Source: Pseudomonadota bacterium (GTDB lineage: Bacteria; Bdellovibrionota; Bdellovibrionia; Bdellovibrionales; JACTMU01). From it: 64,000 bases of DNA. This document shows, in pieces, positions 38,038 through 57,551 of this stretch. Location: positions 1 to 64,000 of the forward strand of contig JACTMU010000013.1 in assembly GCA_014584465.1 (NCBI GenBank), read 5' to 3'. The notes beneath the pieces were generated by a model. That model saw only the letters and a list, made by a program, of their open reading frames with translations. It searched no databases and had not been told where the DNA came from. Every line of letters starts with the position of its first letter. The first letter of the stretch is position 1. The position numbers and the translations under genes were made by a program.

Positions 38038-42648
<4,611 letters not shown>

Positions 42649-42679
42649 CCATTACTCGCTTTTTTGCATGACGTATCAT

Positions 42680-45367
42680 TTAAATTTGCTGCGCCGTGGA
42701 GGCCTGTGCCGTTGGTACCAATTGGGCCAACGTCGAGGCCAGCCGCTCCACAAACTGGCGATCCGGCAAGGTCACCGTCAAACGAAGATCTCCTTGGGGA
42801 GTCGTCTCCGTGCAAGCCAAAAGTCGATCTGCAAACTCAGTCTTGAACGCATTGACAGAAGGTGAGGAGCAGGTTTCAGGTTGAGGGAGCAGGGCGCTGA
42901 CAAAGTCAAAGGCCGCCGAAAGAAGCTGACCGCTGGCTCTTGAAATGGACTCCTTGTCTGCAAATTCTTTTGCCGATCGTTGGACCTCATTTTGTTTGCT
43001 CACGTCGAGCGGAGCCTCTGGGTGTTCACCAATTAAAATTTCAAGTCGTCTCTTTAGCTCTTCCATGCCACAGGAGAGGGAGACCTCATTCACATTCGAG
43101 TTGATATCAAGGGCTGCCAATGCCAGTTGGTTTTTTGCTGATAGAGTGTGGAGAAGGTTGTCTTCAATCGTCTTTTCCGTCACAAGAACGTAAACCTGAA
43201 TCGGATTTTTTTGACCCATTCGATGGGCTCGGGCAATGCGCTGTTCTAAAATAGCCGGGTTCCAAGGAAGGTCCACATTGATCACTGTGTTTGCGGCTTG
43301 AAGGTTAAGTCCCGTTGAACCCGCATTGGTGGTGATAAAAAGCCGACACTTTGGATCCTTCTGAAACTGGTTGACAAGGTCTTGACGTCTCTTTTGCGGC
43401 ACTTTCCCATCGAGTCGAACAAAGTTCATCTTATACTTGTTCAAAATGGGTTCTATAAGATCGAGCATCCTCGTCCATTCAGAAAAGAGGATGATTTTTC
43501 GGTCACCCTCTGAAGCAAGTCGTCCAAGGAGTTCATCGAGCGTTTGAAGTTTACTTGAGTAACCTATTTTTTGTTTAAAGACCAATGCGGTCGAGTTGGC
43601 CGTAAGACGACACATCAAGAGATGTTTTTGCATTTTCAATAAGTCCATCTCTGAAATGTAGGGTTTTCGGACAATGGCCGACACGATTTTCATATGTTCT
43701 CTGTGCAGTTCCAGTTGTTCATCTGTAGGTTCGATGCGTACGATCTGAGTTGTTCGTTCGGGAAGTTCTTTAACAACCGAGGCACGCGTTCGTCGCAACA
43801 TGATCGGGGCAAGCCGCTTTCTAAGCTGGTCTAAGTTCTTGTAGCCTAAAACCTTTCCTTTTTCATCGACCACGCGATGTTGATTGTAGAATCGAAAATC
43901 GGGACCCAGATAGGTAGGATCGACAAACTCCACAATGGAAAAGAGTTCATCAAGGCGATTTTCGAGGGGGGTTCCTGTAAGAACCAGAGCATAGGGAGAT
44001 CTGAGTCCCTTGATGATACGGCTGGTTTTGGCCTCCCAGTTCTTGATTCGCTGTCCTTCGTCCAAGATGATAAGGTCCCAAGAAACCTGTTCAACTAAGA
44101 GGATATCTCTTAAAATCTGTTCATAATTGCAGATGGTAAAGAAAGATGAGTTGCCATACTGAGGTTCTCTCTGTTTTGCAGAGCCCACCACCATCTGGGA
44201 ATGGAGTTTGGAGAAGCGTTTGATCTCGGAGTGCCATTGGGATTTCAAAGAGGTGGGGCAGATGATAAGAACCTTGTGGATCTGCTTTTCTCTTCGCAAA
44301 AGCTCGGCAACACCAATTCCCTGTATGGTCTTACCGAGCCCCATATCATCGGCCAAAATGGCGCGACCTGCGCCAACGGCAAAGGCAATCCCGTCGAGTT
44401 GGTAGGGGAGGAGTTCCGTTTTAAGAAGTTCTTTTCGTAACGGATGAGCTGACGGATTCTTGCGGATCTCGTCAATCTTGGATTTCATGTGAAGTTTGAA
44501 GAGGTTTTGTTGAATGCGCTCTTCTGCGTCCGGATAGACGGTGACAGAGTGGCCAAGAGATTCCAGACGTTTCAGCGTGTGCATGAGCGCATAGATGTCC
44601 GTAATAGGTCGATCTTTATAGGGAGCCACGATCTTCTCGACCATCGGATCTAATTTAGTTGGCACCAGAAATGCCAGAATGTTTTCTCGTCCATATCGAA
44701 TGTGAACTGCGAGGTCCCTGGGTTGATACCGAACTTTTCTTTTCGCTTCGGGAAATTTCTGTTTGACCTTTCTAAGAGCGAACAGGAGATGTTTGCACGT
44801 GCCGAGGGTGTTTTTTCGAAAATCAGGACATGAACAGTAGGACTCCCCTCTCTCCCAGCCTCGCAATGCAACTCGATAACTTTTTCCGGAGAGACGGTTG
44901 GTGATCGTGTAATCCGTCCAGAGTTGATCAGGATTGAGCGATTTGAGCACCATCTTTTCTTTGTCCGCACGCTCTGTTCGCTCACTCAGCGCCCTTTCCA
45001 CTAGTTTTACTTCGCTGAGGCTCTCAACAGGGACTCGCTCTGGAGGAGGTTCGGCCAATCCGAGCGTCATCTTCTCTTCCAGAATGGTCGAAAACGCAGC
45101 ACCTACATGATGGCAGAGAGCGGAGCAACTGTTGCATTCCCAATGAATCTCATCAAAAGAGCCCTCAGAAAGCTTAAGCGTGACCATGGCATCTTCCACC
45201 TTCATCTGAAAGAGATCATCCGTCAGGGTCATATGGTCTTGGTCGCAGGGGGTTTCAATTTTTCCACCCTCTAAAATGCAACGAGCTCCATCAGGCCCGA
45301 GGATGCGGCAAGCCTGCCGATATTTCAGATGCGAGAGTCGATCTTTGAGTCGGTAGCGTTGAGCCAT
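42680..45367 (-). CDS. SNF2-family helicase with N-terminal SWIM zinc finger
   Basis: An 895-residue protein. A cysteine cluster ECNSCSALCHHVGAAF near residue 80 and a clear SWIM finger (YCSCPDFRKNTLGTCKHLLF, about 176-195) precede the SNF2 ATPase: Walker A ILADDMGLGKT (about 339), motif II DEGQ instead of the usual DEAH/DEAQ (about 434), LTGTPLENRLDELF, and motif VI QRIARAHRMGQ (about 712). The final 160 residues are of unknown fold. I chose the ATG at 45367 (GAGGAG 7 bases upstream). First gene of the tandem SNF2 pair; a family 1 repeat lies upstream. Confidence 0.9.
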   Translation of the reverse strand: MAQRYRLKDRLSHLKYRQACRILGPDGARCILEGGKIETPCDQDHMTLTDDLFQMKVEDAMVTLKLSEGSFDEIHWECNSCSALCHHVGAAFSTILEEKMTLGLAEPPPERVPVESLSEVKLVERALSERTERADKEKMVLKSLNPDQLWTDYTITNRLSGKSYRVALRGWERGESYCSCPDFRKNTLGTCKHLLFALRKVKQKFPEAKRKVRYQPRDLAVHIRYGRENILAFLVPTKLDPMVEKIVAPYKDRPITDIYALMHTLKRLESLGHSVTVYPDAEERIQQNLFKLHMKSKIDEIRKNPSAHPLRKELLKTELLPYQLDGIAFAVGAGRAILADDMGLGKTIQGIGVAELLRREKQIHKVLIICPTSLKSQWHSEIKRFSKLHSQMVVGSAKQREPQYGNSSFFTICNYEQILRDILLVEQVSWDLIILDEGQRIKNWEAKTSRIIKGLRSPYALVLTGTPLENRLDELFSIVEFVDPTYLGPDFRFYNQHRVVDEKGKVLGYKNLDQLRKRLAPIMLRRTRASVVKELPERTTQIVRIEPTDEQLELHREHMKIVSAIVRKPYISEMDLLKMQKHLLMCRLTANSTALVFKQKIGYSSKLQTLDELLGRLASEGDRKIILFSEWTRMLDLIEPILNKYKMNFVRLDGKVPQKRRQDLVNQFQKDPKCRLFITTNAGSTGLNLQAANTVINVDLPWNPAILEQRIARAHRMGQKNPIQVYVLVTEKTIEDNLLHTLSAKNQLALAALDINSNVNEVSLSCGMEELKRRLEILIGEHPEAPLDVSKQNEVQRSAKEFADKESISRASGQLLSAAFDFVSALLPQPETCSSPSVNAFKTEFADRLLACTETTPQGDLRLTVTLPDRQFVERLASTLAQLVPTAQASTAQQI

Positions 45368-45523
45368 GGGGGTTCTCCTCAATTTGTAATGATCATTTCT
45401 TTTCAGAATCACGTTTAATTCACGCTTTCTTTTCTGTCTCGTCGTTTTTTAAAAAGCTGCACCGTGTTTGTCATGAGGGGCTCTCTCACGGTCGTATCGC
45501 ATCACATCGCAGCGCAGCACATA

Positions 45524-45685
45524 GTGCTTGGCGCGAAACCTGCTTTCGAGTGAATTTGCATAAGTTTTCCTTATACCGAGGCGGGCCGACGAAGGGCTAG
45601 CCAGAGGCGCTAACTCGAGGAGGCTCAACGAAGGTATAAGGAAAACTTATGCAAATTCACTGAAATGAGGTTTCGCGCCAAGCAC
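45524..45685. repeat. Palindromic element family 1, copy 4 (best-preserved)
   Basis: 162 bp from GTGCTTGGCGCGAAACCT to AGGTTTCGCGCCAAGCAC. The inner arms TTTGCATAAGTTTTCCTTAT and its exact complement pair perfectly, so a transcript could form a long rod with only a central loop containing GGGCTAGCC and GGCGCTAACTCGAGGAGG. ACATA occurs on both sides, adjacent on the left and one base offset on the right. It lies between the 3' end of recQ and the SWIM-SNF2 promoter region. Confidence 0.92.
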
Positions 45686-45702
45686 TACATAGAGTGTTTT
45701 GG

Positions 45703-47268
45703 TCAGGCGTTGAGCACCTCTAAGAGCTCTTTGCCGAACCGTGCAATCTTCTTTTCAGCCAGTCCATAGATCTTTTGAAGATCTTCAACGGTTTTAGGCA
45801 TCTGAGTTGCAAGGTCTCGTAGAGTCTTATCACTAAAGACAAGAAAAGGTGGGATGTCATTTCGAGCGGCATATTCGCGACGCCACTCTTTAAGAACCTC
45901 AATGCGCCAACTCTCTGGCTCACGGGTTGGATCTGGTTCATGAATCTCAAATGAGTCTTTTGATCGAGCAGTCGATTTCCGTAAACGCACCTTAGAACTT
46001 GAGTGCGCCACCTCCTGAATCTTTCGTGTTGAATTTGGGGTGCAGGCATCACAATGGCCGCATCGTGAAATTCTCTGTTTATCGCGAAAGTAGGTTAAAA
46101 TACCTCCGTGTCGACACCCTCCGCCCTCTGCAAACTGAATCATGGCGTTGAGAGACTGCCATCGCTGTCTTTTTATAGTTTGTGAGACCTCTGCCTTTTC
46201 AATGAAGAAGGCTTGGAGGCCTTTGTCTTTCTTTGCGTAGAGTAAAAGACAGGTCGATTCGTCTCCATCTCGTCCTGCGCGTCCCACCTCTTGGTAATAG
46301 GACTCGAGATTGCCGGGCATTTCGGTGTGGATGATCAGGCGAACATCAGGGAGGTCAACTCCCATTCCAAACGCATTGGTGGCAACCAAAACGCGAACTT
46401 CTCCTTGAAGGAAGGAATGTTCAATCTTTGTCCTCTCATCGGCTGTAAGGCCCGCATGATAATAGGCAACGGACTCTCCCTCTTGCATCATCAAAGCAGC
46501 CCAACTCTCAGTGCCTTTGCGTGTCCCACAGTAGATGATCACACGGCCTTTCGGAAATTGGCGAAGCCCTTGAAAAAGATACTTTCTTTTTTCTTCTTCA
46601 TCGGAGCAAAATTGGACCTGATAGTAAAGGTTGGGTCGATAGAATCCGTAGACATGCCGATCCGCTTTGGGGATTCCAAGGCAATTCACAATATCGCGGA
46701 TCACCGTCGGAGTTGCGGTGGCCGTCAATGCCAACACGGGAACATCGGGCCTCCAGACTTTGAGTTGAGAGAGTTCTCCATACTCTTTTCGAAAGTCGTG
46801 GCCCCACTGCGAGATGCAGTGAGCTTCATCAATGGCAAAAAGGGCGACTCTTTGATTTTGAAGCCACGGGGAAAACCCATCTTTCTGCACCCGTTCGGGT
46901 GAAAGATAGAGTATGAATCGATCGGACTGAGACATCCTAGAGAAGATCTCCTTTTTTTCGGCGTAGCTTTGATTTGAGTGCAGACATCCAGCCGGGATTC
47001 CTCGGGCCTTTAGCGCTTGAACCTGATCATTCATCAGAGCAATCAACGGTGAGACGACAATGGTGAGGCCCGTCTGAACGGTTGCCGGAAGTTGAAAGCA
47101 GAGAGATTTTCCGCCACCGGTGGGCATCACGGCCACCGTGTCACATCCCTTGAACACCGATGAGATGATCTCCATTTGGCCGGGACGAAAACTCTCGAGA
47201 TCAAAATGGTCTTTCAATGCTTTTTTAAGAAAATCTTCTGTCACTGTCACTGTCACTGTCAATATCAT
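45703..47268 (-). CDS. recQ: ATP-dependent DNA helicase RecQ
   Basis: RecQ unwinds DNA 3' to 5' in recombinational repair. Visible are FRPGQMEII (motif 0), Walker A MPTGGGKSLCFQLP (about 50), DEAHCISQWGHDFRKEY, the GMGVDLPDVRLIIH region, motif VI QEVGRAGRDG, the zinc cysteines RCGHCDAC (about 400) and an HRDC domain at the C-terminus. The frame is open 49 codons upstream to 47415; I chose the ATG at 47268, just before a (GTGACA)-type hexamer repeat coding TVTVTV, because RecQ homology begins shortly after. Start uncertain. Confidence 0.92.
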   Translation of the reverse strand: MILTVTVTVTEDFLKKALKDHFDLESFRPGQMEIISSVFKGCDTVAVMPTGGGKSLCFQLPATVQTGLTIVVSPLIALMNDQVQALKARGIPAGCLHSNQSYAEKKEIFSRMSQSDRFILYLSPERVQKDGFSPWLQNQRVALFAIDEAHCISQWGHDFRKEYGELSQLKVWRPDVPVLALTATATPTVIRDIVNCLGIPKADRHVYGFYRPNLYYQVQFCSDEEEKRKYLFQGLRQFPKGRVIIYCGTRKGTESWAALMMQEGESVAYYHAGLTADERTKIEHSFLQGEVRVLVATNAFGMGVDLPDVRLIIHTEMPGNLESYYQEVGRAGRDGDESTCLLLYAKKDKGLQAFFIEKAEVSQTIKRQRWQSLNAMIQFAEGGGCRHGGILTYFRDKQRISRCGHCDACTPNSTRKIQEVAHSSSKVRLRKSTARSKDSFEIHEPDPTREPESWRIEVLKEWRREYAARNDIPPFLVFSDKTLRDLATQMPKTVEDLQKIYGLAEKKIARFGKELLEVLNA

Positions 47269-47408
47269 GGTCCCATTTAATGATGACTCCAATGTTACCC
47301 ACTTTGGCCGAGGATTCAATCGCCATCGGTTACCGAGGTTATTCTGGGATTCCGTTTTTGCCAAGAAGACACGCCATGCCTTTGCGAGACAGCATTTTAG
47401 AGTTGACA

Positions 47409-47435
47409 TTTCCATTTTTTACTAAAAAATGGAAA
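47409..47435. promoter_or_regulatory. 12-bp perfect inverted repeat at the start of the DUF4143 ATPase gene
   Basis: TTTCCATTTTTT, a 3-base spacer, AAAAAATGGAAA. The repeat ends one base before the ATG at 47437 and lies just downstream of TTGACA (47403-47408). It could be an operator or a structure that hides the start site. No ribosome site other than GGA is seen. Confidence 0.5.
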
Positions 47436-47436
47436 T

Positions 47437-48573
47437 ATGATTTCCAGATTGTTTAAACATCCAAAAACCAACAGTTTTTTTCTATTTGGGCCTAGGGGAG
47501 TGGGCAAGTCCTATTTCATTCGAACCCAGTTCCATGAAGACAGCATTTACCTGAATCTACTTGATGATGAACTCTATACTCAACTTTTGGCTAAACCCTC
47601 GCGATTGGCCGATCATATTCCAACCAGACATTCTGGGTGGGTAATTATTGACGAAATTCAGAAAATACCGACTCTACTTGATGCTGTTCATCGTCTAATT
47701 GAAGAGCGGGGACAGAAATTTGTGCTCACTGGTTCAAGTGCAAGAAAGTTAAAGAAAACCGGAGTTAATTTGTTGGCCGGAAGAGCATTTACCCAATTTG
47801 CATTCCCGTTAACTGCCCTTGAACTTGGCAATCAATTTGATGCAGGTAGGGCATTAAGAACTGGACTGCTCCCAAAGTCGTACCTGGAGTCCAATGAGAG
47901 TGGTTTTCTCTCTTCCTATGTTGCCACTTATCTCAAGGAGGAGGTTCAGCAGGAGGGGCTCGTTAGAAACATTGGCTCTTTTGCACGATTTTTGGAAGCA
48001 GCAAGTTTTTCTCAAGGACAGATCTTGAACTACTCAAATGTCAGTAGCGATTGTGGTGTTGAACGAAAAACGGTCGTAAACTATTTTCAAATTCTAGAGG
48101 ACCTTCTTCTTTCCTATCAGCTCGAAGTGTTCTCTCGAAAGGCAAAACGTGAATTGATCAAGCATCGTAAATTCTATTTTTTTGATGTGGGTGTTTTTGG
48201 CCAATTAAGACCAAGGGGGCCACTTGATATGGACTCCGAGATTCTTGGTGTCAGCGTCGAAACCTTAGTGCTTCAGGAACTTAAAGCTAGAAACGAGTAC
48301 CAAGATTGGCAATACAATATCTATTTTTGGCACACTAGGAATCATCTTGAAGTCGACTTCATTCTGTACGGTAAACGCGGACTGTACGCCATCGAGGTTA
48401 AAGCTGGAGGCAGAATTCGCGATGCGGATCTTGATGGATTGCTCGCTTTCAAACAGGACTATCCTCAGGCCAAACTGTGCCTTGTTTATACGGGAAAGGA
48501 GCAAAAGACTTATAAGGACGTTCATTTCGTTCCACTCCAGGATTTCCTACTAAAAACCGAAAATTATCTTTAA
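47437..48573 (+). CDS. AAA-type ATPase with DUF4143 domain
   Basis: A 378-residue protein of the AAA_14/DUF4143 family: Walker A FGPRGVGKS (about residues 18-26), Walker B VIIDEIQKIP, the sensor segment VLTGSSARKLKKTGVNLLAGRA, and the C-terminal DUF4143 domain with its PD-(D/E)XK-like block LEVDFILYGKRGLYAIEVKA. These proteins are common in accessory DNA; their role is unsettled. It is divergent from recQ, lies just upstream of the decayed jet genes, and has a paralogue at 62919. Confidence 0.85.
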   Translation: MISRLFKHPKTNSFFLFGPRGVGKSYFIRTQFHEDSIYLNLLDDELYTQLLAKPSRLADHIPTRHSGWVIIDEIQKIPTLLDAVHRLIEERGQKFVLTGSSARKLKKTGVNLLAGRAFTQFAFPLTALELGNQFDAGRALRTGLLPKSYLESNESGFLSSYVATYLKEEVQQEGLVRNIGSFARFLEAASFSQGQILNYSNVSSDCGVERKTVVNYFQILEDLLLSYQLEVFSRKAKRELIKHRKFYFFDVGVFGQLRPRGPLDMDSEILGVSVETLVLQELKARNEYQDWQYNIYFWHTRNHLEVDFILYGKRGLYAIEVKAGGRIRDADLDGLLAFKQDYPQAKLCLVYTGKEQKTYKDVHFVPLQDFLLKTENYL

Positions 48574-48599
48574 GTTTGCTCGCCGCGCCAGAGTATGAT

Positions 48600-49693
48600 A
48601 TGGAGCGCAACGTGAGTGCCAATCGAATCATCCACACATTTCGACGTCTCCGTGAGCAGCCACTGTGGCGGCTTTTGGCCGCCGACCATGGACCAGCGAT
48701 CCTTGGAATTCTCCAGTCCCAACTGTTCAATAACGAGAAAAGCCTTCCCGCATCAGTTTTTCATGAGAGGGTTGAACGGGACCTTGAAGAGTTGCGTGCT
48801 GGTGGTGAGGAGCTCCCGCAGACGGCTCAGGCCTACATTGCAGGGTGCTCAATCGTGATCTTCGAGAGCAAATTGTGGATACTGAAGGCAGTCGTGGACA
48901 TGTTCTTGATGCACTTTTTTCTGGTGTTGATTTGATCTCCGAAAGCGATGCTGGACGAACATTTGCGGCGTTTTGGAAATTGCTGATCGATCCTGAACAG
49001 AGTGCCTCATTGGAAGATTCGTTGGATCAGATTTTGGGAAGACCCTTTGCTTCCAAGCTGGAGCCCAACGAGAGGAGGTTTTTACTTCGTCTCACTCGTA
49101 CACTTCTAGATGAGGGTGGACACGTTCATGGTGTGCTCCAGAACTTCGCCCGAAGTTTGAAACAATTTGTCCAGAGTCGTGAGTATTTAGAACAAAGACG
49201 ACTCAATCAACTCTTAACCCAAGCTCAGAAATTGAGCCTTGATCTTAAGGAGAATGTGGCAGCACAAAATCTGCTTGAATATGAGCTCCAATTGACCAGC
49301 AGTCGTTTGCGCTCACTCTCGCAGTGGCAGTTGCATGACCCATCTCAAAGCGAGTGCTCTACAGAAATGGTCGCCGGTGAAGGGGCTTTGATCGACCTTG
49401 AGACGGTTGGCAATTGGGTTGCTCAATCTGAAATCGATTTTCGTGAGTTAAGAGAAAATATATGCACTTGTCTGTTGGATCAGACTCAAGTGTCCATAGG
49501 AGACATCTTAAAAAACTTTCCTGCCACTCAAGGTCTGGGGAGTATTGTGGGATATCTCTCTTTGGCGAGTCGTCATGCCGTTCGTACGGATGGTGAGGAA
49601 CAGATCCGTTGGGACGGAGGTGATCGCAGATCACGTACCGCGCGCATTCCTACTCTCTATTTTCTAAAGGAGCGAATCCATGAGCTTCGATGA
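48600..49693 (+). pseudogene. jetA: Wadjet JetA (DUF3375) remnant, internally deleted and out of frame
   Basis: JetA is the kleisin subunit of the Wadjet anti-plasmid SMC complex. Two frames together resemble it: 48600-48848 codes the N-terminus (HTFRRLREQPLWRLLAAD ... LPQTAQAYIAG) and 48845-49693 codes the second half (LNRDLREQIVDTEGSRG, ESDAGRTFAAFWKLL, and the winged-helix end DILKNFPATQGLGSIVGYL). The frame changes at about 48846. The joint product would be about 365 residues against roughly 480-500 for the family, so more than 100 codons seem lost at the junction. A TTG at 48576 or a GTG at 48612 (GGAG upstream) are other starts. Confidence 0.75.
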
Positions 49694-51299
49694 CATGCAA
49701 AGTTCGGCCATGCAAGAGGGGGCATCCTCTCTTTTTCTAGGGGACGTAGGAGAACTTCCTCTCCAGACCCGTCGAGTTCTTGTCCAGCTGCTTGGATTTA
49801 GTAACAAGACGAAACTGGCGCTATTTGAATCGGAGGCCCAAGAGTTGGGTCAAAAGATATCAAGCCTGCAGGAGGAGTTGAGGGGTTTGGAGGATGCAGA
49901 AAAGGCGAGGATGAATCGATACAGTCATTGCCGAACGTTGATGAACTTGCAATGGTCCGAAGTCGACGTTGAGATCCTAGTCCAAAGGATCGCGGCAATT
50001 GAACAAAATGTACGTGAAACTCTTTCAAAGAACAAGTCACTGCAGGAGATTGAAGGTCGTCTCGGTGAAGAGGAAAAGAGGCTAAATCTCGTTGAGGGAG
50101 ATCTTCAGAGACTCCAGGTGAAGTTGGCGGTATGTCAAGAAAAGTACGAGGAGAACAAACGCTGGCAAAGTGAGATCACGGAAAAGCTGAAAGAACACCC
50201 ACTTACCGTAAGTCAAGAGATGGGTCTGAATGAGCGCATCTCAACAATGAAGGTTGCGGCAACGCTTGCCAACATTGATGAGTTGGTAAGAAGGGTGACC
50301 AGGGATTTGACGAATGAAATGGAAAGGATCCAGGATCAACGCAGTCGCTTAGAGCGCGAGATCGAGAAGAGGTTCATTGAGTTTAAACGTCGATGGCCAA
50401 CTGAAGCAGCTGATATGGATGCGAAGATTGCAAGCTCCTCAGATTTTTTTGCGAAGCTGGAACGACTGGAACACGACGGGCTACCAAAACATGAAGAGAG
50501 ATTTTTTGATCTTCTTCGAAATCAAAGTCATCAGAACTTGGCGGCCCTTTCAACTCACATGAATCAGGCAAGAAAAGAGATTGCGGCAAGACTGGAACTT
50601 GTGAATGAGGGACTTGGAGAGGCAGCCTTTAATCCTGGAACTCACTTGCACATTCAGTCGAGTGATCGGCAGCTCCCTGAGGTCAGGGAGTTTAAGCAGG
50701 AAGTTCAGCGCGCACTCAGTCATGCGTGGGACGAGGATCGCGAGGGTGCTGAGTCCCGATTCCTGATTTTAAAGAAATTGGTGGAACGTCTTTCCAGTGA
50801 AGTCGCTGCAGACCGAAGGTGGAGGGAGACGGTTTTGGATGTTCGCCAACATGTAGAGTTCATTGGTAGAGAGCTGGATCAAGAGGGGCGTGAAATTGAG
50901 GTGTATCGAAGCGGATCTGGTAAGTCGGGCGGTCAACGTCAAAAACTTGCGACGACCTGCTTGGCGGCGGCTCTTAGATACCAGCTTGGTGGCCACGAGA
51001 GGGGGCACCCTGTTTATGCGCCCGTGATTCTTGATGAGGCATTTGATAAGGCGGACAATGAGTTTACGGCCCTTGCGATGAACATATTTTCCAATTTTGG
51101 CTTTCAAATGATCGTGGCGACACCTTTGAAATCGGTCATGACATTGGAACCATTCATTGGTGGGGCTTGTGTTGTGGATATTCGAGATCGCAAACACTCG
51201 GGAGTCTTATTGATTGAATATGATTCAACAGAGAAGCGACTCAAGCTTCCGAAGCGCCATTCCGGTCAGGATCAGGATCAGGTTCAGGAGAGGATTTGA
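49680..51299 (+). pseudogene. JetB-JetC fusion remnant of a Wadjet operon
   Basis: The first 40 or so residues (SSLFLGDVGELPLQTRRVLV) match the start of JetB (DUF4194, MukE-like). From about residue 42 (near 49806) the sequence becomes the coiled coil and C-terminal head of JetC, the SMC-like ATPase: signature KSGGQRQKLATTC and Walker B APVILDEAFDKAD, with the Q-loop head and Walker A half missing. A deletion thus appears to have removed most of jetB and about half of jetC, leaving a 539-residue frame. It keeps the normal 14-bp overlap with jetA and TTGA overlap with jetD. The product cannot bind ATP in the usual way. Confidence 0.75.
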
Positions 51300-52426
51300 A
51301 ATTTCCAAAGGATGTTCAACTGATATTGAAACGTCGGTACCGACGCCAGGCAAGTCAGTGGGTGCAGGGATCGAACCCTTGGCCAATGTCGATTCCCTTG
51401 TCGCCCCCCAGTGAACAGGAGGCAAGGCAAAAGTCGGAAACAGTGAGAGACTGGGTATTGGCTTGGCAAACGTGGAGTGGAAAGGGGAGCTTGATTTGGA
51501 AGGAGACCCATTGGCGTGTGCTCGGGACACAGTCTCTTCCAGAGCGTTTGTTGCTTTTTGGAGCGGAAGATGTTGCTGAATGGGTTGGTCAATCGGATGA
51601 TTGGCGAGCACAGATGGTATTTCGGCAAACCTTTCTTAAAAGATGGCCAGAGCTAGAGCAAGGGTTGAAGTTTGTCGATGAAGATGAGGATGATCTGGGT
51701 CGTCTTGTTGCAATGCTTGAGTGGTTGGAACGGAATCCTCGGTCCAATCTCTACCCACGGCAAATTCCAGTCTCCGGGTTGGACACAAAGTGGTTGGAGC
51801 GACGAATGGATTGGATCGCTAGGGCTCTCTTACTTTTGCGAGGGGAGCCATCTGGCCACAGGGATTTCTATGAGATCGCCGGACTTCGGAGTCTGCCACA
51901 TCTGGTTCGCATGAGGATCCTTGATGCGCGTCTTCGAGAGTCGGTGGGAGGATTGAGCGACTTGTGTGCGCCACCGGATGAGATTACGAGGCTCAAATTA
52001 CCCATTCGAAAGACATTCATTGTAGAAAATCTTCAATCTGGTTTGGCATTTGAGGATATTCCAAATTCAGTTCTATTTATGGGGATGGGAAATGGAATTT
52101 CACTTCTCTCTCAAGTCTCGTGGATCGCCCACACGGAGTGTGTTTACTGGGGTGATATCGACACCTATGGTTTTTCTATTTTGGATCAGGTGAGATCGTT
52201 CATCCCGGGGGTCCAGTCCAAGCTCATGGATGAGTCCACGCTGTGTGACCATCAGGTGTTCTGGGGGGATGAGATGAAACAACACCCTTCTGAGAGTCTG
52301 ATCCATCTCAATCCAAGTGAACGAGATGTCTACGAGGGGCTAAGGGCCCATCGATGGCGGCCCAATCTTCGTCTTGAGCAAGAGAGAATCCCCTGGTCCT
52401 ACGCGTGGCCCAGATTGTTGGAATAG
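51296..52426 (+). CDS. jetD: Wadjet nuclease subunit JetD (DUF3322/DUF2220)
   Basis: JetD is the topoisomerase VI-like, TOPRIM-containing nuclease of the Wadjet complex, which cuts closed circular plasmids extruded by JetABC. The N-terminal DUF3322 part and the C-terminal DUF2220 part are both present: FIVENLQSGLAFE with the catalytic glutamate, LFMGMGNGISLL, and the metal-binding YWGDIDTYGFSILDQVR. 376 residues, full length for the family. It starts with TTG overlapping the preceding stop. It appears intact although its partners are broken. Confidence 0.85.
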   Translation: MKFPKDVQLILKRRYRRQASQWVQGSNPWPMSIPLSPPSEQEARQKSETVRDWVLAWQTWSGKGSLIWKETHWRVLGTQSLPERLLLFGAEDVAEWVGQSDDWRAQMVFRQTFLKRWPELEQGLKFVDEDEDDLGRLVAMLEWLERNPRSNLYPRQIPVSGLDTKWLERRMDWIARALLLLRGEPSGHRDFYEIAGLRSLPHLVRMRILDARLRESVGGLSDLCAPPDEITRLKLPIRKTFIVENLQSGLAFEDIPNSVLFMGMGNGISLLSQVSWIAHTECVYWGDIDTYGFSILDQVRSFIPGVQSKLMDESTLCDHQVFWGDEMKQHPSESLIHLNPSERDVYEGLRAHRWRPNLRLEQERIPWSYAWPRLLE

Positions 52427-52460
52427 GTCGTGTCGCAGAATTTTCGGAGCTGGACGATAT

Positions 52461-52541
52461 TTGTGCAATTTTGTGCATTTAACGTTGACTTGTGCAATTT
52501 TGTGCATTTAACGTTGACTTGTGCAATTTTGTGCATTTAAC
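52461..52541 (+). repeat. Three 29-bp direct repeats upstream of the AlbA_2 regulator gene
   Basis: Two full units and one 23-base unit of period 29, at 52461, 52490 and 52519, each TTGTGCAATTTTGTGCA followed by TTTAACGTTGAC. Each unit also holds two TTGTGCA-type half sites. TTGACT recurs and could serve as a -35 box. They end 17 bases before the start codon at 52559, so they probably are the operator/promoter of the following gene. Confidence 0.9.
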
Positions 52542-52558
52542 AGGAGAGGGCGTCTCAA

Positions 52559-53890
52559 ATGCCAATCTACCCCGAAAAAGAGTCAAAAAGCCTTGAGTTC
52601 AAGGTGTCGTTACCGAAGAATCTCAGCAGTATTGTAAAGACATGTGTTGCATTTGCGAACACCAATGGCGGTGAGATCATTATTGGCGTTGAGGATCAAA
52701 CGAGAAAGATAGTTGGAGCTACAGATCGTGACGTTTCAAGATGTTTTGAAGAGCTCCCGGACTCGATCTATGATTCTATTTCGCCAACCGTCGTGCCTGA
52801 CATTTTTGAAAGAAACATTGAGGGAACGATCGTTGTCGTTATTCGTATTGCCAAGGGTAACCACAAACCCTATTTTCTGAAAGGAGAGGGATCTCTTCGA
52901 GGAGTTTACATAAGAATTGCGAGTCATACCCGAAGAACCACAGAGGACTACTTAAAGGAGTTGATTGAAGATCAAAGACGCAAGACCTTTGACACTATGC
53001 CAAGCACGGCTTCCATCAAAGATCTAGACGACAGTCTGATCCAATCGACTTACGGGCATACCGTCTCAGAAAGGCAGATGATGGCTGAGCACATTCTTGT
53101 GGAACAGAATCATCGTGATCGAGTGCCAACTCAAGGTGCAGTGATTGCGTTTGGTCGGAAGCCCGAAGATATTCTTAGTGAGTCCTACCTTATTTGCACC
53201 CATTTTCAAGGGATCACTGGTAGGAATATCATCCAGACTCGTGATGTTTGTGGTCCTCTACCTGAAATCCTAGAGACAACATTGAATCTCCTCCAAAGTT
53301 GGATGGAGACAAACTATCAGATTATAAAGGGCAGACTGAAGGGCAAATTGCCCATTCCGATGGAGGCTTTGCGTGAGGCTTTGACCAACGCATTGGTTCA
53401 CCGAAAGTACACGATCCCTGGTCCTGTGAAAGTCGCACTCTATTCAGATCACTTAGAGGTGTTCAGTCCAGGTGGATTTCCTGGGCTCATCACGATCAAC
53501 AATCTTGGGGATGGGTCCACTTACCTTCGAAATCCTCTGCTGGCTAAGTTTGCACGAAAAATGCGATTAATAGAAAAGCTAGGGTCAGGCATTCGCCTTA
53601 TTTTCGATTCGTGTGCGGAGCGTTCTCTTAAGAAACCAGATTTTTTTGAAGATGGGGATTTTGTCAAAGTGGTCTTCTACTTTGCAGTGGGAAAAAAGAT
53701 CACATCTGATCTCAAGACGACGATACTTGAATGTTTTGGTGAAGGTCAGCGGATTCGAGTCAAGGATCTCTCTTCAGTGATTGAAGTTTCGCGAAATACC
53801 ATAACCAATGCGCTCAACGCATTGAAGAAAGATGGTAAGATCAAAAGGCATGGAAAGGGTCGCGGTGTCTACTACACTCTGAACAAGTGA
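52559..53890 (+). CDS. AlbA_2 (Schlafen-like)/HATPase regulator with C-terminal winged helix
   Basis: A 443-residue protein of the ATP-dependent regulator type. Residues 1-125 form the AlbA_2/Schlafen-like domain (ESKSLEFKVSL, CVAFANTNGGEIIIGVED). A middle region contains the HATPase_c_4 segment (LREALTNALVHRKYT, LEVFSPGGFPG, GSGIRLIFDSC). The last 60 residues are a helix-turn-helix/winged helix (IRVKDLSSVIEVSRNTITNA). Members act as transcription regulators or defence components. GGAGAGGG precedes the ATG. It is 55 bp upstream of the SNF2 gene, and the three direct repeats before it suggest autoregulation. Confidence 0.88.
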   Translation: MPIYPEKESKSLEFKVSLPKNLSSIVKTCVAFANTNGGEIIIGVEDQTRKIVGATDRDVSRCFEELPDSIYDSISPTVVPDIFERNIEGTIVVVIRIAKGNHKPYFLKGEGSLRGVYIRIASHTRRTTEDYLKELIEDQRRKTFDTMPSTASIKDLDDSLIQSTYGHTVSERQMMAEHILVEQNHRDRVPTQGAVIAFGRKPEDILSESYLICTHFQGITGRNIIQTRDVCGPLPEILETTLNLLQSWMETNYQIIKGRLKGKLPIPMEALREALTNALVHRKYTIPGPVKVALYSDHLEVFSPGGFPGLITINNLGDGSTYLRNPLLAKFARKMRLIEKLGSGIRLIFDSCAERSLKKPDFFEDGDFVKVVFYFAVGKKITSDLKTTILECFGEGQRIRVKDLSSVIEVSRNTITNALNALKKDGKIKRHGKGRGVYYTLNK

Positions 53891-53944
53891 GGCAGGTGAT
53901 TCTATGATCTGTCCGATTTAAAAATAGTAAAGGAGCCCCACCAA

Positions 53945-56614
53945 ATGCCATCCATCGTACTTTCTCCCAGTTTACGACTTTTCATTGAGGGAAAAGATCT
54001 CAATCGGCATGAAACTCTCACCAAGGCATTTCAAGCCGGATCGGGTTTCGGCCTACTATTTTTGGATGGTTCGATCGACGCTGTAACGGAAGATCCAGGT
54101 TTTTCATACTGGAAGGACTTCACACGTCTCTATTTGTCGCTATTTTCAGCCACTCCAGACTTGGATCAGCGTGATTTCAGGGAAGATCCAGTTAAGGTTG
54201 ATTTGCCACGCGAAGACCTTGAACGGTTTTTATTGACAGTGCCTCCAATGAAGGGTGCCGAATATGTCAATGACGAAGCACTCTTAACACTTTGGAAATC
54301 GATCGAGCTTGCTTTGCACTCGAACATCGAAAAAGAGAAATGGGACGTAGCAAGCTATTTTATGACTCAACATTCAGGCCTGAATCTCCTTGGGCGTGTC
54401 TGTTTTCATTTGGCTGAAAACAAAAGCACACCAGACACGCCATTTGCATTTTTGGCAACTTATGCCCATCGGGTGAATCAACGGGGAAGGGTGCAGCATT
54501 TACCCTTGATGCGTGCACTTGATGAGTATGCAGGAGCCACAGAGAAGGGCGTGCTTTTGCGTCTTCTCTCGCCCATCCAAAAGGCCTCTAAGGAAAGTGC
54601 GCTCATCAATGAACTTGTTCGTTCCGGTCACATCTATGAAACATTGGCTTGGACCGCAAAGGAGGCTCACCGTTTTCTCGTTGATGTGCCCGTCATGGAA
54701 AAGTCAGGAATTGCGGTGCGTGTGCCTAACTGGTGGAGGTCAAAGAATTTCAATCGTCCTCAAATTGCGGTTCGCTTGGGTGAAAAGAAGCCTTCTGGTT
54801 TGGGACTTGATGCTCTTGTAGATTTTTCTTTGTCAATTGTGCTGAGTGAACAGGAGTTAAGCCAAAAGGAAATTCAGAAGCTGTTGGCTTCAAGTGATAA
54901 TTTGATCTTTTTCAAGGGTCAGTGGGTGGAGGTTGATCGGGAGCGACTCGAAGACCTCTTATCCAAATGGAAAATTGCCGCCAGATCCATCGGTGAGGGA
55001 CTCAGCTTTGGTGAGGCTTTGCGTCTTCTTTCGGGTGTGGACTCCGCTGTGGACGAACCTTCCTCAAAGAGTGGCAATTCATTGACTCGTATCGTATCGG
55101 GTCAGTGGCTCACTCAGATGCTCAACGAGATCAGGGCCCCCGAAACGCACAAAAAGATTGAAAACGTATTGAACTCGAAGCTTCAAACAGTGCTTCGACC
55201 CTATCAAAAACAGGGTGTCGCTTGGTTGTATCAACTCAATCAACTGCGTTTAGGTGGAATTCTTGCAGATGACATGGGCCTTGGTAAAACGATTCAAATC
55301 ATCTCTCTCTTACTTTTGAGAAGGCACCTTGTTGCAGATAAATCCAAGAGCCTTTTGGTTGTACCAGCCAGTCTGATTGGGAACTGGAAATCTGAATTCA
55401 ATCAATTTTCGCCCTCCTTGAGGTACTGGATCGCCCATCCATCGGGCGAGGGTTATGGAAAACCTGATCTGACCTCCACAGACGTGGTCATTACGACCTA
55501 TGGTTCTTTAAGCAGGTTGAATCAGTGGCTTTCAACCATTGAGTGGAGCATCGTTATTGCAGATGAAGCTCAAGCCATTAAAAATCCTAACGCGAAACAG
55601 ACCAAGGCAATCAAATCCATCAAAAGTCAACATCGGTTGGCAATGACGGGGACTCCGGTTGAAAATCACCTCTCCGATTTGTGGTCGCTCTTCGATTTTG
55701 TTTCGCCGGGCCTTCTCGGATCCTCCAAAGTGTTCGAATCCTTCATAAAAAAGAAGGGCAAGGACGGAGGGAATCCCTATGCTCCGATCCGCAAACTTGT
55801 GCGTCCCTATCTTTTGCGAAGACTCAAAACGGATAAGTCCGTGATCCGGGATCTGCCGGAAAAGACTGAGATCAAAAGTTACTGCCAACTTTCAAATGCT
55901 CAGGCAGCGCTTTATCAGAAGTCGGTTGAGTCTTTGAAACGGGAAATTCGAGAGATCGAAGGAATCAAACGTCGTGGGGTTGTTCTCTCTTATTTGATGC
56001 GGTTTAAGCAGATCTGCAATCACCCCTCACAATTTGTGAAAGATGGCCGTTTTGTGGAAGCTGAAAGCGGAAAATTTCGTCGTCTTAGGGAAATCTGCGA
56101 AGTCATTGCCGATAAGCAAGAGAAGGTCCTGGTTTTCACTCAATTTAAAGAGATGACCGAGCCCCTTGGAGACTTTCTAAGTGGTGTTTTTGGAAGAGAG
56201 GGGGTTGTTCTCCATGGCGAATCTGCCATTAAGAAACGTGCTCAGATGGTGGAGCAGTTTCAGAAAGACGAGGGGCCTCCCTATTTTGTTTTGTCGCTTA
56301 AAGCGGGTGGAACCGGTCTGAATCTAACTGCAGCATCCCATGTGATCCATTTTGATCGTTGGTGGAACCCGGCCATTGAGAACCAGGCAACGGATCGTGC
56401 GTTTCGGATCGGGCAGAAAAAGAACGTCTTGGTGCACAAATTTATTTGTAGAGGAACTCTCGAGGAAAAAATCGATGCGCTTATCGATGGGAAACGATCC
56501 ATGTCCAAGGAACTCTTGGAGGATGGCGACGCAACACATCTAACAGAGCTTGCAAATGATGAGTTGCTCAAGATCGTGGCTCTTGATATGAGTTCTGCGA
56601 TTGAGGATCAATAG
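53945..56614 (+). CDS. SNF2-family helicase with bacterial SNF2-associated domain
   Basis: An 889-residue protein. The first 400 residues include a region like the bacterial SNF2-associated domain (DFSLSIVLSEQELSQKEI, FFKGQWVEVDRERLEDLL). The ATPase follows: Walker A ILADDMGLGKT (about 441), DEAQ (about 537), MTGTPVENHLSDLWSLFDFV, and motif VI QATDRAFRIGQ (about 813). AAAGGAGCCCC lies just before the ATG. It forms a unit with the SWIM protein gene downstream, a pairing seen in many bacteria. Biological role unknown. Confidence 0.92.
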   Translation: MPSIVLSPSLRLFIEGKDLNRHETLTKAFQAGSGFGLLFLDGSIDAVTEDPGFSYWKDFTRLYLSLFSATPDLDQRDFREDPVKVDLPREDLERFLLTVPPMKGAEYVNDEALLTLWKSIELALHSNIEKEKWDVASYFMTQHSGLNLLGRVCFHLAENKSTPDTPFAFLATYAHRVNQRGRVQHLPLMRALDEYAGATEKGVLLRLLSPIQKASKESALINELVRSGHIYETLAWTAKEAHRFLVDVPVMEKSGIAVRVPNWWRSKNFNRPQIAVRLGEKKPSGLGLDALVDFSLSIVLSEQELSQKEIQKLLASSDNLIFFKGQWVEVDRERLEDLLSKWKIAARSIGEGLSFGEALRLLSGVDSAVDEPSSKSGNSLTRIVSGQWLTQMLNEIRAPETHKKIENVLNSKLQTVLRPYQKQGVAWLYQLNQLRLGGILADDMGLGKTIQIISLLLLRRHLVADKSKSLLVVPASLIGNWKSEFNQFSPSLRYWIAHPSGEGYGKPDLTSTDVVITTYGSLSRLNQWLSTIEWSIVIADEAQAIKNPNAKQTKAIKSIKSQHRLAMTGTPVENHLSDLWSLFDFVSPGLLGSSKVFESFIKKKGKDGGNPYAPIRKLVRPYLLRRLKTDKSVIRDLPEKTEIKSYCQLSNAQAALYQKSVESLKREIREIEGIKRRGVVLSYLMRFKQICNHPSQFVKDGRFVEAESGKFRRLREICEVIADKQEKVLVFTQFKEMTEPLGDFLSGVFGREGVVLHGESAIKKRAQMVEQFQKDEGPPYFVLSLKAGGTGLNLTAASHVIHFDRWWNPAIENQATDRAFRIGQKKNVLVHKFICRGTLEEKIDALIDGKRSMSKELLEDGDATHLTELANDELLKIVALDMSSAIEDQ

Positions 56615-56657
56615 AGATAGAGCGAAAGAAAGAAGAAGAAAAAGAAGGAGAAGTTGT

Positions 56658-57551
56658 ATGTACGGATGGGGCTATTTTCGACCTTATGTACCTGTTGCTG
56701 AAAGAAAGAAGCAGGCCCAAAAGACGGTGTCCAAACTCCTTAAAAAAGGAAAGAAGGTTGCTCCCATCAAGATCAATGGCCGCACCATTGCCACAACATT
56801 TTGGGGCCAAGCTTGGTGTGATCACTTGGAATCCTTCAGTGATTATGAAAATCGCCTCCCTCGTGGCCGTACGTACGTCCGAAATGGTTCTGTCCTTCAT
56901 CTTGAAATTGAAAAGGGCAGGATCGAAGCACTTGTCCAAGGCTCCTCGCTTTATAAGGTCGAAGTCGACATCCAATGCGTAAACAGTAAAATATGGAAAT
57001 CCATCGTAAACAGTTGTTCTGGTGAGATCGATTCGGTGATTGAACTTCTTCAGGGCAAATTGTCTTCATCTGTGATGAAAACCATCACGAATAGGAATAA
57101 AGGGTTGTTCCCTCAACCCAAGGAGATCTCGTTGAGTTGCTCTTGTCCTGATTGGGCGGAAATGTGCAAGCATGTGGCCGCCGTTCTCTATGGTGTTGGA
57201 GCGAGATTGGATCGTGAACCTGAACTCATATTTAAGCTTCGGCATGTGGACCATCTTGACTTGATTCATAAGGCAAGCCTCAAAGTACCGAAAAAGCAAG
57301 GCGGGAAAACCAAAGTTATCAAAGATCAGAATTTGTCAGATATCTTTGGAATTGAAATTGAGTCAGAACCCGTGGCAGCTTCAACTCGAAAAACTCGAGC
57401 ATCCAAGCGATCCAAGGCCGTAAAGAAAATCAAGACCATCAAGAAACCAAGGGTCGTGAAGAAATCAAAGACCGTCAGGAGATCAAAGGGATTAAAGAAA
57501 TCAACGAGATCTTCTGTAAAGCGAAAAACAGGTTCCAAGAAACGCCACTAA
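56658..57551 (+). CDS. SWIM zinc-finger protein with histone H1-like basic tail
   Basis: A 297-residue partner of the SNF2 helicase. It starts MYGWGYFRPYVPVAERKK, typical of this family, and contains FWGQAWCDHLESFSDYENRL, RGRTYVRNGSVLHLEI and the SWIM finger CSCPDWAEMCKHVAAVLYGV. The last 80 residues are Lys/Arg-rich with short repeats (KAVKKIKTIKK, VVKKSKTVRRSK), resembling histone H1-like tails, which suggests direct DNA binding. I chose the ATG at 56658 (GGAG 7 bases upstream); the frame extends 19 codons further back into the helicase gene. Confidence 0.88.
   Translation: MYGWGYFRPYVPVAERKKQAQKTVSKLLKKGKKVAPIKINGRTIATTFWGQAWCDHLESFSDYENRLPRGRTYVRNGSVLHLEIEKGRIEALVQGSSLYKVEVDIQCVNSKIWKSIVNSCSGEIDSVIELLQGKLSSSVMKTITNRNKGLFPQPKEISLSCSCPDWAEMCKHVAAVLYGVGARLDREPELIFKLRHVDHLDLIHKASLKVPKKQGGKTKVIKDQNLSDIFGIEIESEPVAASTRKTRASKRSKAVKKIKTIKKPRVVKKSKTVRRSKGLKKSTRSSVKRKTGSKKRH

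Follow-up and report, generated by a model that had tools for sequence, protein, structure and literature searches.

In intact Wadjet systems, JetA, JetB, and JetC assemble into an SMC complex that extrudes DNA loops. This complex recognizes small circular DNA and passes it to JetD, a nuclease that is otherwise autoinhibited and is activated in this way. Restriction requires all four subunits (PMC10586767). A Clostridium cellulovorans strain with raised plasmid uptake carries a spontaneous Wadjet deletion (PMC12287153), which spans ~23 kb and removes the whole operon. Deletion has also removed Wadjet genes from the locus described here, but in the form of two small internal deletions that leave remnants behind. 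This locus is found in a 64,000-nucleotide stretch of DNA (the window; contig JACTMU010000013.1, positions 1 to 64,000) from a member of Bdellovibrionales, and it very probably represents a type I Wadjet operon, probably horizontally acquired, that has recently been inactivated by these two deletions.

Profile matches and comparison with intact operons place the type I Wadjet (jetABCD) remnant at positions 48612-52426 on the plus strand, where it consists of four consecutive open frames, with the following features:

48612..48842, plus strand, jetA 5' remnant (JetA residues ~1-78 of 487; the frame continues to a stop at 48935)
48843..48847, no strand, deletion junction 1 (from alignment to intact JetA)
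48848..49693, plus strand, jetA 3' remnant (JetA residues 207-486; open to the normal stop, in another frame)
49680..49793, plus strand, jetB 5' remnant (first 38 codons; from JetB models PDLC00501/00481/00485, best E value 8e-6, and alignment)
49788..49793, no strand, deletion junction 2 (from alignment to JetB and JetC of loci L010-L020)
49788..51299, plus strand, jetC 3' half (residues 621-1111 of 1112; PDLC00518, E value 2e-176; SbcC_Walker_B; JetC structure, PDB ID 8dk2)
51296..52426, plus strand, jetD, intact (376 aa; Pfam DUF3322 [CAP], positions 1-189 of 190, and JetD_C, positions 1-178 of 179)

All four Jet families are identified unambiguously in this interval by Pfam and PADLOC profiles, with E values down to 1e-176. 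NCBIfam gave no match. The order jetA-jetB-jetC-jetD is conserved, with overlaps, on a single strand, and the remnants of all four genes are adjacent. The idea that these fragments are chance open reading frames rather than Jet genes is refuted by the profile matches; with about 44 to 60% identity to intact operons and the conserved order and overlaps also standing against it, it can be dismissed for all practical purposes. The type I Wadjet ancestry of the locus is certain. Of the five testable features that define a system of this type, three are missing: JetA (the DUF3375 kleisin) is not full length, with residues ~79-206 gone and the frame changed; JetB (the DUF4194 KITE subunit) is reduced to 38 residues; and the SMC ATPase JetC, which should combine Walker A, signature, and Walker B motifs, has lost the half that carries Walker A. 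JetD has both the CAP and the Toprim domain, retains its acidic catalytic residues, and gives a full-length match. The initial annotation had described the region as a decayed Wadjet operon with intact jetD, on the basis of gene order, overlaps, and recognizable parts, and had named profile searches and alignment to an intact operon as checks; both bear it out, the former by naming all four families and the latter by mapping the two deletions, with jetD whole.

For this mapping, 15 loci with a JetA 49 to 60% identical to that of the window were taken from a species-genome collection, and the JetA, JetC, and JetD alignments drew on the 8 in which the genes are full length. The closest type I Wadjet operons, those of Deltaproteobacteria MAG WY2.bin100 (L013), Desulfobacterales CSSed165cm_188 (L014), Desulfatitalea alkaliphila (L011), and Hydrogenedentes TH-Jun18-22 (L010), show the same A-B-C-D order and overlaps. 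Their identity to the window is 55 to 60% in the C-terminal part of JetA, 54 to 56% in the JetC half, and 41 to 48% in JetD. These four operons are full length, whereas the window lacks ~2.8 kb at two places.

The N-terminal part of jetA corresponds to positions 3-78 of the 487 in the PADLOC JetA model PDLC00460 (E value, 2e-22) and to positions 1-69 of the 474 in Pfam DUF3375. The C-terminal part covers positions 207-486 (E value, 1e-114) and 198-474 of the same models, respectively, and is 60% identical to JetA of Hydrogenedentes TH-Jun18-22. Alignment to the intact JetA of L010-L020 shows that ~128 codons (~0.38 kb) are missing at junction 1 and that the frame has changed: the match ends after QTAQAYIA and resumes at LNRDLRE, and ~5 nt fit neither side cleanly. 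Profiles and alignment thus agree with the earlier view that jetA has lost its middle and its frame, and the junction position proposed then, 48846, lies within the aligned one (~48843-48847). The proposed start, an ATG at 48600, is in the same frame, but the GTG at 48612, with a GGAG ~7 nt upstream, is the better start.

The open reading frame at 49680-51299 (539 aa) starts with 38 residues that match JetB models and continues as JetC. Relative to L013, ~2.4 kb is missing at junction 2: jetB beyond its 38th codon, together with jetC up to codon 620. The join is in frame. The jetB match ends after RRVLVQLL, and jetC starts at a motif that reads VLGFDN in most relatives; the Leu codon at 49791-49793 is compatible with either side. 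The two genes had been described as joined by deletion, and 38 JetB codons are indeed fused in frame to JetC residues 621-1111. The junction, however, had been put at 49806, ~15 nt too far downstream of the position given by alignment (~49788-49793). The JetC remnant retains the coiled coil, the ABC signature GKSGGQRQKLA (SGKSGGQRQKLA), and the Walker B motif VILDEAFDKAD. In alignments, the Walker A motif, GxSGxGK(S/T), lies in roughly the first hundred codons of intact JetC frames, and it has been lost here because the deletion joins jetB codon 38 to the second half of jetC. Solved JetC structures (PDB IDs 8dk2, 9qxt, and 8as8) share the C-terminal half with signature and Walker B with the JetC of the window but also contain the N-terminal head half; as this half is missing, the window encodes no complete ATPase head.

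As proposed initially, jetD alone is complete, with the DUF3322 and JetD_C domains covered end to end. In alignments, the acidic Toprim residues E244, D287, and D289 are conserved and the GDxD motif is present. E244 aligns with the position of the E248A substitution in the solved JetD structure 8q72, and the Toprim E and DxD are shared with both solved JetD structures (PDB IDs 7til and 8q72) and with MksG (PDB ID 8b7f). A scan for promoters and terminators found no more than in shuffles.

Damage is also seen in some of the related loci. In a Thiohalocapsa MAG (L018:8889-15788), the operon is interrupted by an insertion, since ~6.9 kb separates jetA from jetB, and in a Nitrospiraceae MAG (L021:3958-5570) a single frame change at ~4785 splits jetA. 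A genome of the same order as the window (G139; L032:5352-7853) contains a second, independent Wadjet wreck, in which JetA lacks the N terminus and is split over two frames, JetB is complete, and JetC ends after ~310 residues and is followed by a fragment of an SNF2 helicase. No JetD match was found within the stretch of L032 that was examined.

Both junctions are known from one assembly, which comprises 3.75 Mb in 120 contigs and is 99.67% complete. Its draft state and 1.1% contamination leave some room for an intact operon in the organism, with the gaps arising from errors in assembly or consensus calling or from a deletion variant carried by a minority of a mixed population. This is improbable, as each of the two separate gaps would need to be spurious, both junctions are internal to a contig, and the missing sequence is found on no other contig of this nearly complete genome. 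The N-terminal 626 residues of the L013 JetC have no match in the 3.75-Mb genome, while the full-length query, used as a positive control, matches only this locus, with residues 625-1119. The L013 JetB finds the 5' remnant and a chance-level match of 24 residues (E value, 0.175) on another contig, and the rest of JetB is absent. The same searches for the missing JetB and JetC segments gave no sign of rearrangement or of a split assembly. The whole genome encodes one JetA and one JetD, both at this locus; a second Wadjet that could complement the first was sought genome-wide through the JetA and JetD families, and none was found.

The broken frames (the C-terminal part of jetA and the fusion) contain no stop and no further frameshift in 2460 nt. 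With 4.6% of single-base changes in these frames creating a stop, this limits unselected substitutions since inactivation to ~65 at most (95%), equal to 2.6% divergence, a cap that presumes that the frames have been unselected since the loss. If so, the breakage is probably recent; if selection acted on some product of the remnants, frames free of stops would not point to a recent event. Selection was gauged from deviations at otherwise invariant columns in nine-way alignments of the same pieces from the window and its intact relatives. In the C-terminal part of JetA, the window deviates at 7 of 93 such columns (relatives, 0 to 9), and in that of JetC at 3 of 148, among the least (relatives, 3 to 12). 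JetD deviates at 10 of 80, the highest of the nine (relatives, 1 to 9), which makes it, if anything, the most diverged of the three pieces at such sites, and it shows no extra constraint. Terminal branch lengths follow a similar pattern, and neither measure supports selective retention of jetD. The broken pieces do not appear clearly accelerated, which fits a recent loss. The initial annotation had noted two deletions with little further decay, as is the case. Of the two explanations that it offered, recent inactivation agrees with the remaining pieces being free of stops and frameshifts. Retention of parts by selection is not supported, as the conservation of jetD and of the fragments does not exceed that seen in intact relatives.

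If selection kept the remnant, the 539-aa JetB-JetC fusion, JetD, or both would have taken on a new function; JetD could, for instance, act as a stand-alone nuclease that is held by the N-terminal stretch of JetB on the fusion. The fusion is in frame and begins at the native jetB start, it and jetD are both open, and the N terminus of JetB is reported to contact JetD via an IFDR motif (PMC10586767). Set against this, one in three random deletions joins in frame, Walker A is missing from the fusion, jetA has lost its frame, and JetD is the most deviant of its alignment, which makes such retention very unlikely. Slightly less likely still is that selection maintains a minimal Wadjet derivative without a motor, in which an expressed, ATPase-dead JetB(1-38)-JetC(621-1111) fusion would still dock or restrain intact JetD. 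A literature search for truncated JetC in connection with Wadjet found none.

Among 148 genomes of the order, JetA relatives are found in only five others, with 22 to 31% identity and no sister strain. Close homologues (50 to 60% identity) are found in the unrelated phyla and classes Hydrogenedentes, Desulfobacterota, and Gammaproteobacteria, and horizontal acquisition would be the likeliest history of the locus. The region adjoins apparently conserved lipid A biosynthesis genes. Its surroundings include SNF2 and RecQ helicases, a Schlafen/AlbA_2 regulator, DUF4143 ATPases, and a PD-(D/E)XK transposase-family gene:

38038-42648, minus strand, SNF2-type helicase
42680-45412, minus strand, SNF2-type helicase
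45703-47415, minus strand, RecQ
53945-56614, plus strand, SNF2-type helicase
56601-57551, plus strand, SWIM-domain gene

Positions 38038-57551 of the window, around the operon, are a candidate defense or mobile-gene region. At 52461-52541, just upstream of an AlbA_2/HATPase/winged-helix regulator gene (52559-53890), a 29-bp unit, TTGTGCAATTTTGTGCATTTAACGTTGAC, is present in 2.8 perfect copies, possibly an operator array.

The locus is broken. In the proposed course of events, a type I Wadjet operon gained horizontally would have undergone two internal deletions, leaving the kleisin JetA cut and frameshifted, the KITE subunit JetB without anything past residue 38, and the SMC subunit JetC without the N-terminal half of its head. 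No ATPase motor is predicted to form from these remnants, and JetD, autoinhibited and dependent on JetABC for targeted cutting, would be idle if expressed at all. With the kleisin and KITE subunits lost and no way to complete an SMC head, restriction of small circular plasmids should be absent, as is also expected from the requirement for all four subunits (PMC10586767). The locus would then be nonfunctional and let plasmids in. It provides a clean example of a defense system probably seen soon after its inactivation, with an orphaned nuclease gene, and is otherwise ordinary gene decay in a member of the known Wadjet type I. A pipeline that annotates gene by gene would list hits to jetD, jetA, and jetC at this locus and might mistake them for a functional Wadjet system, so such remnants matter for censuses of defense systems.
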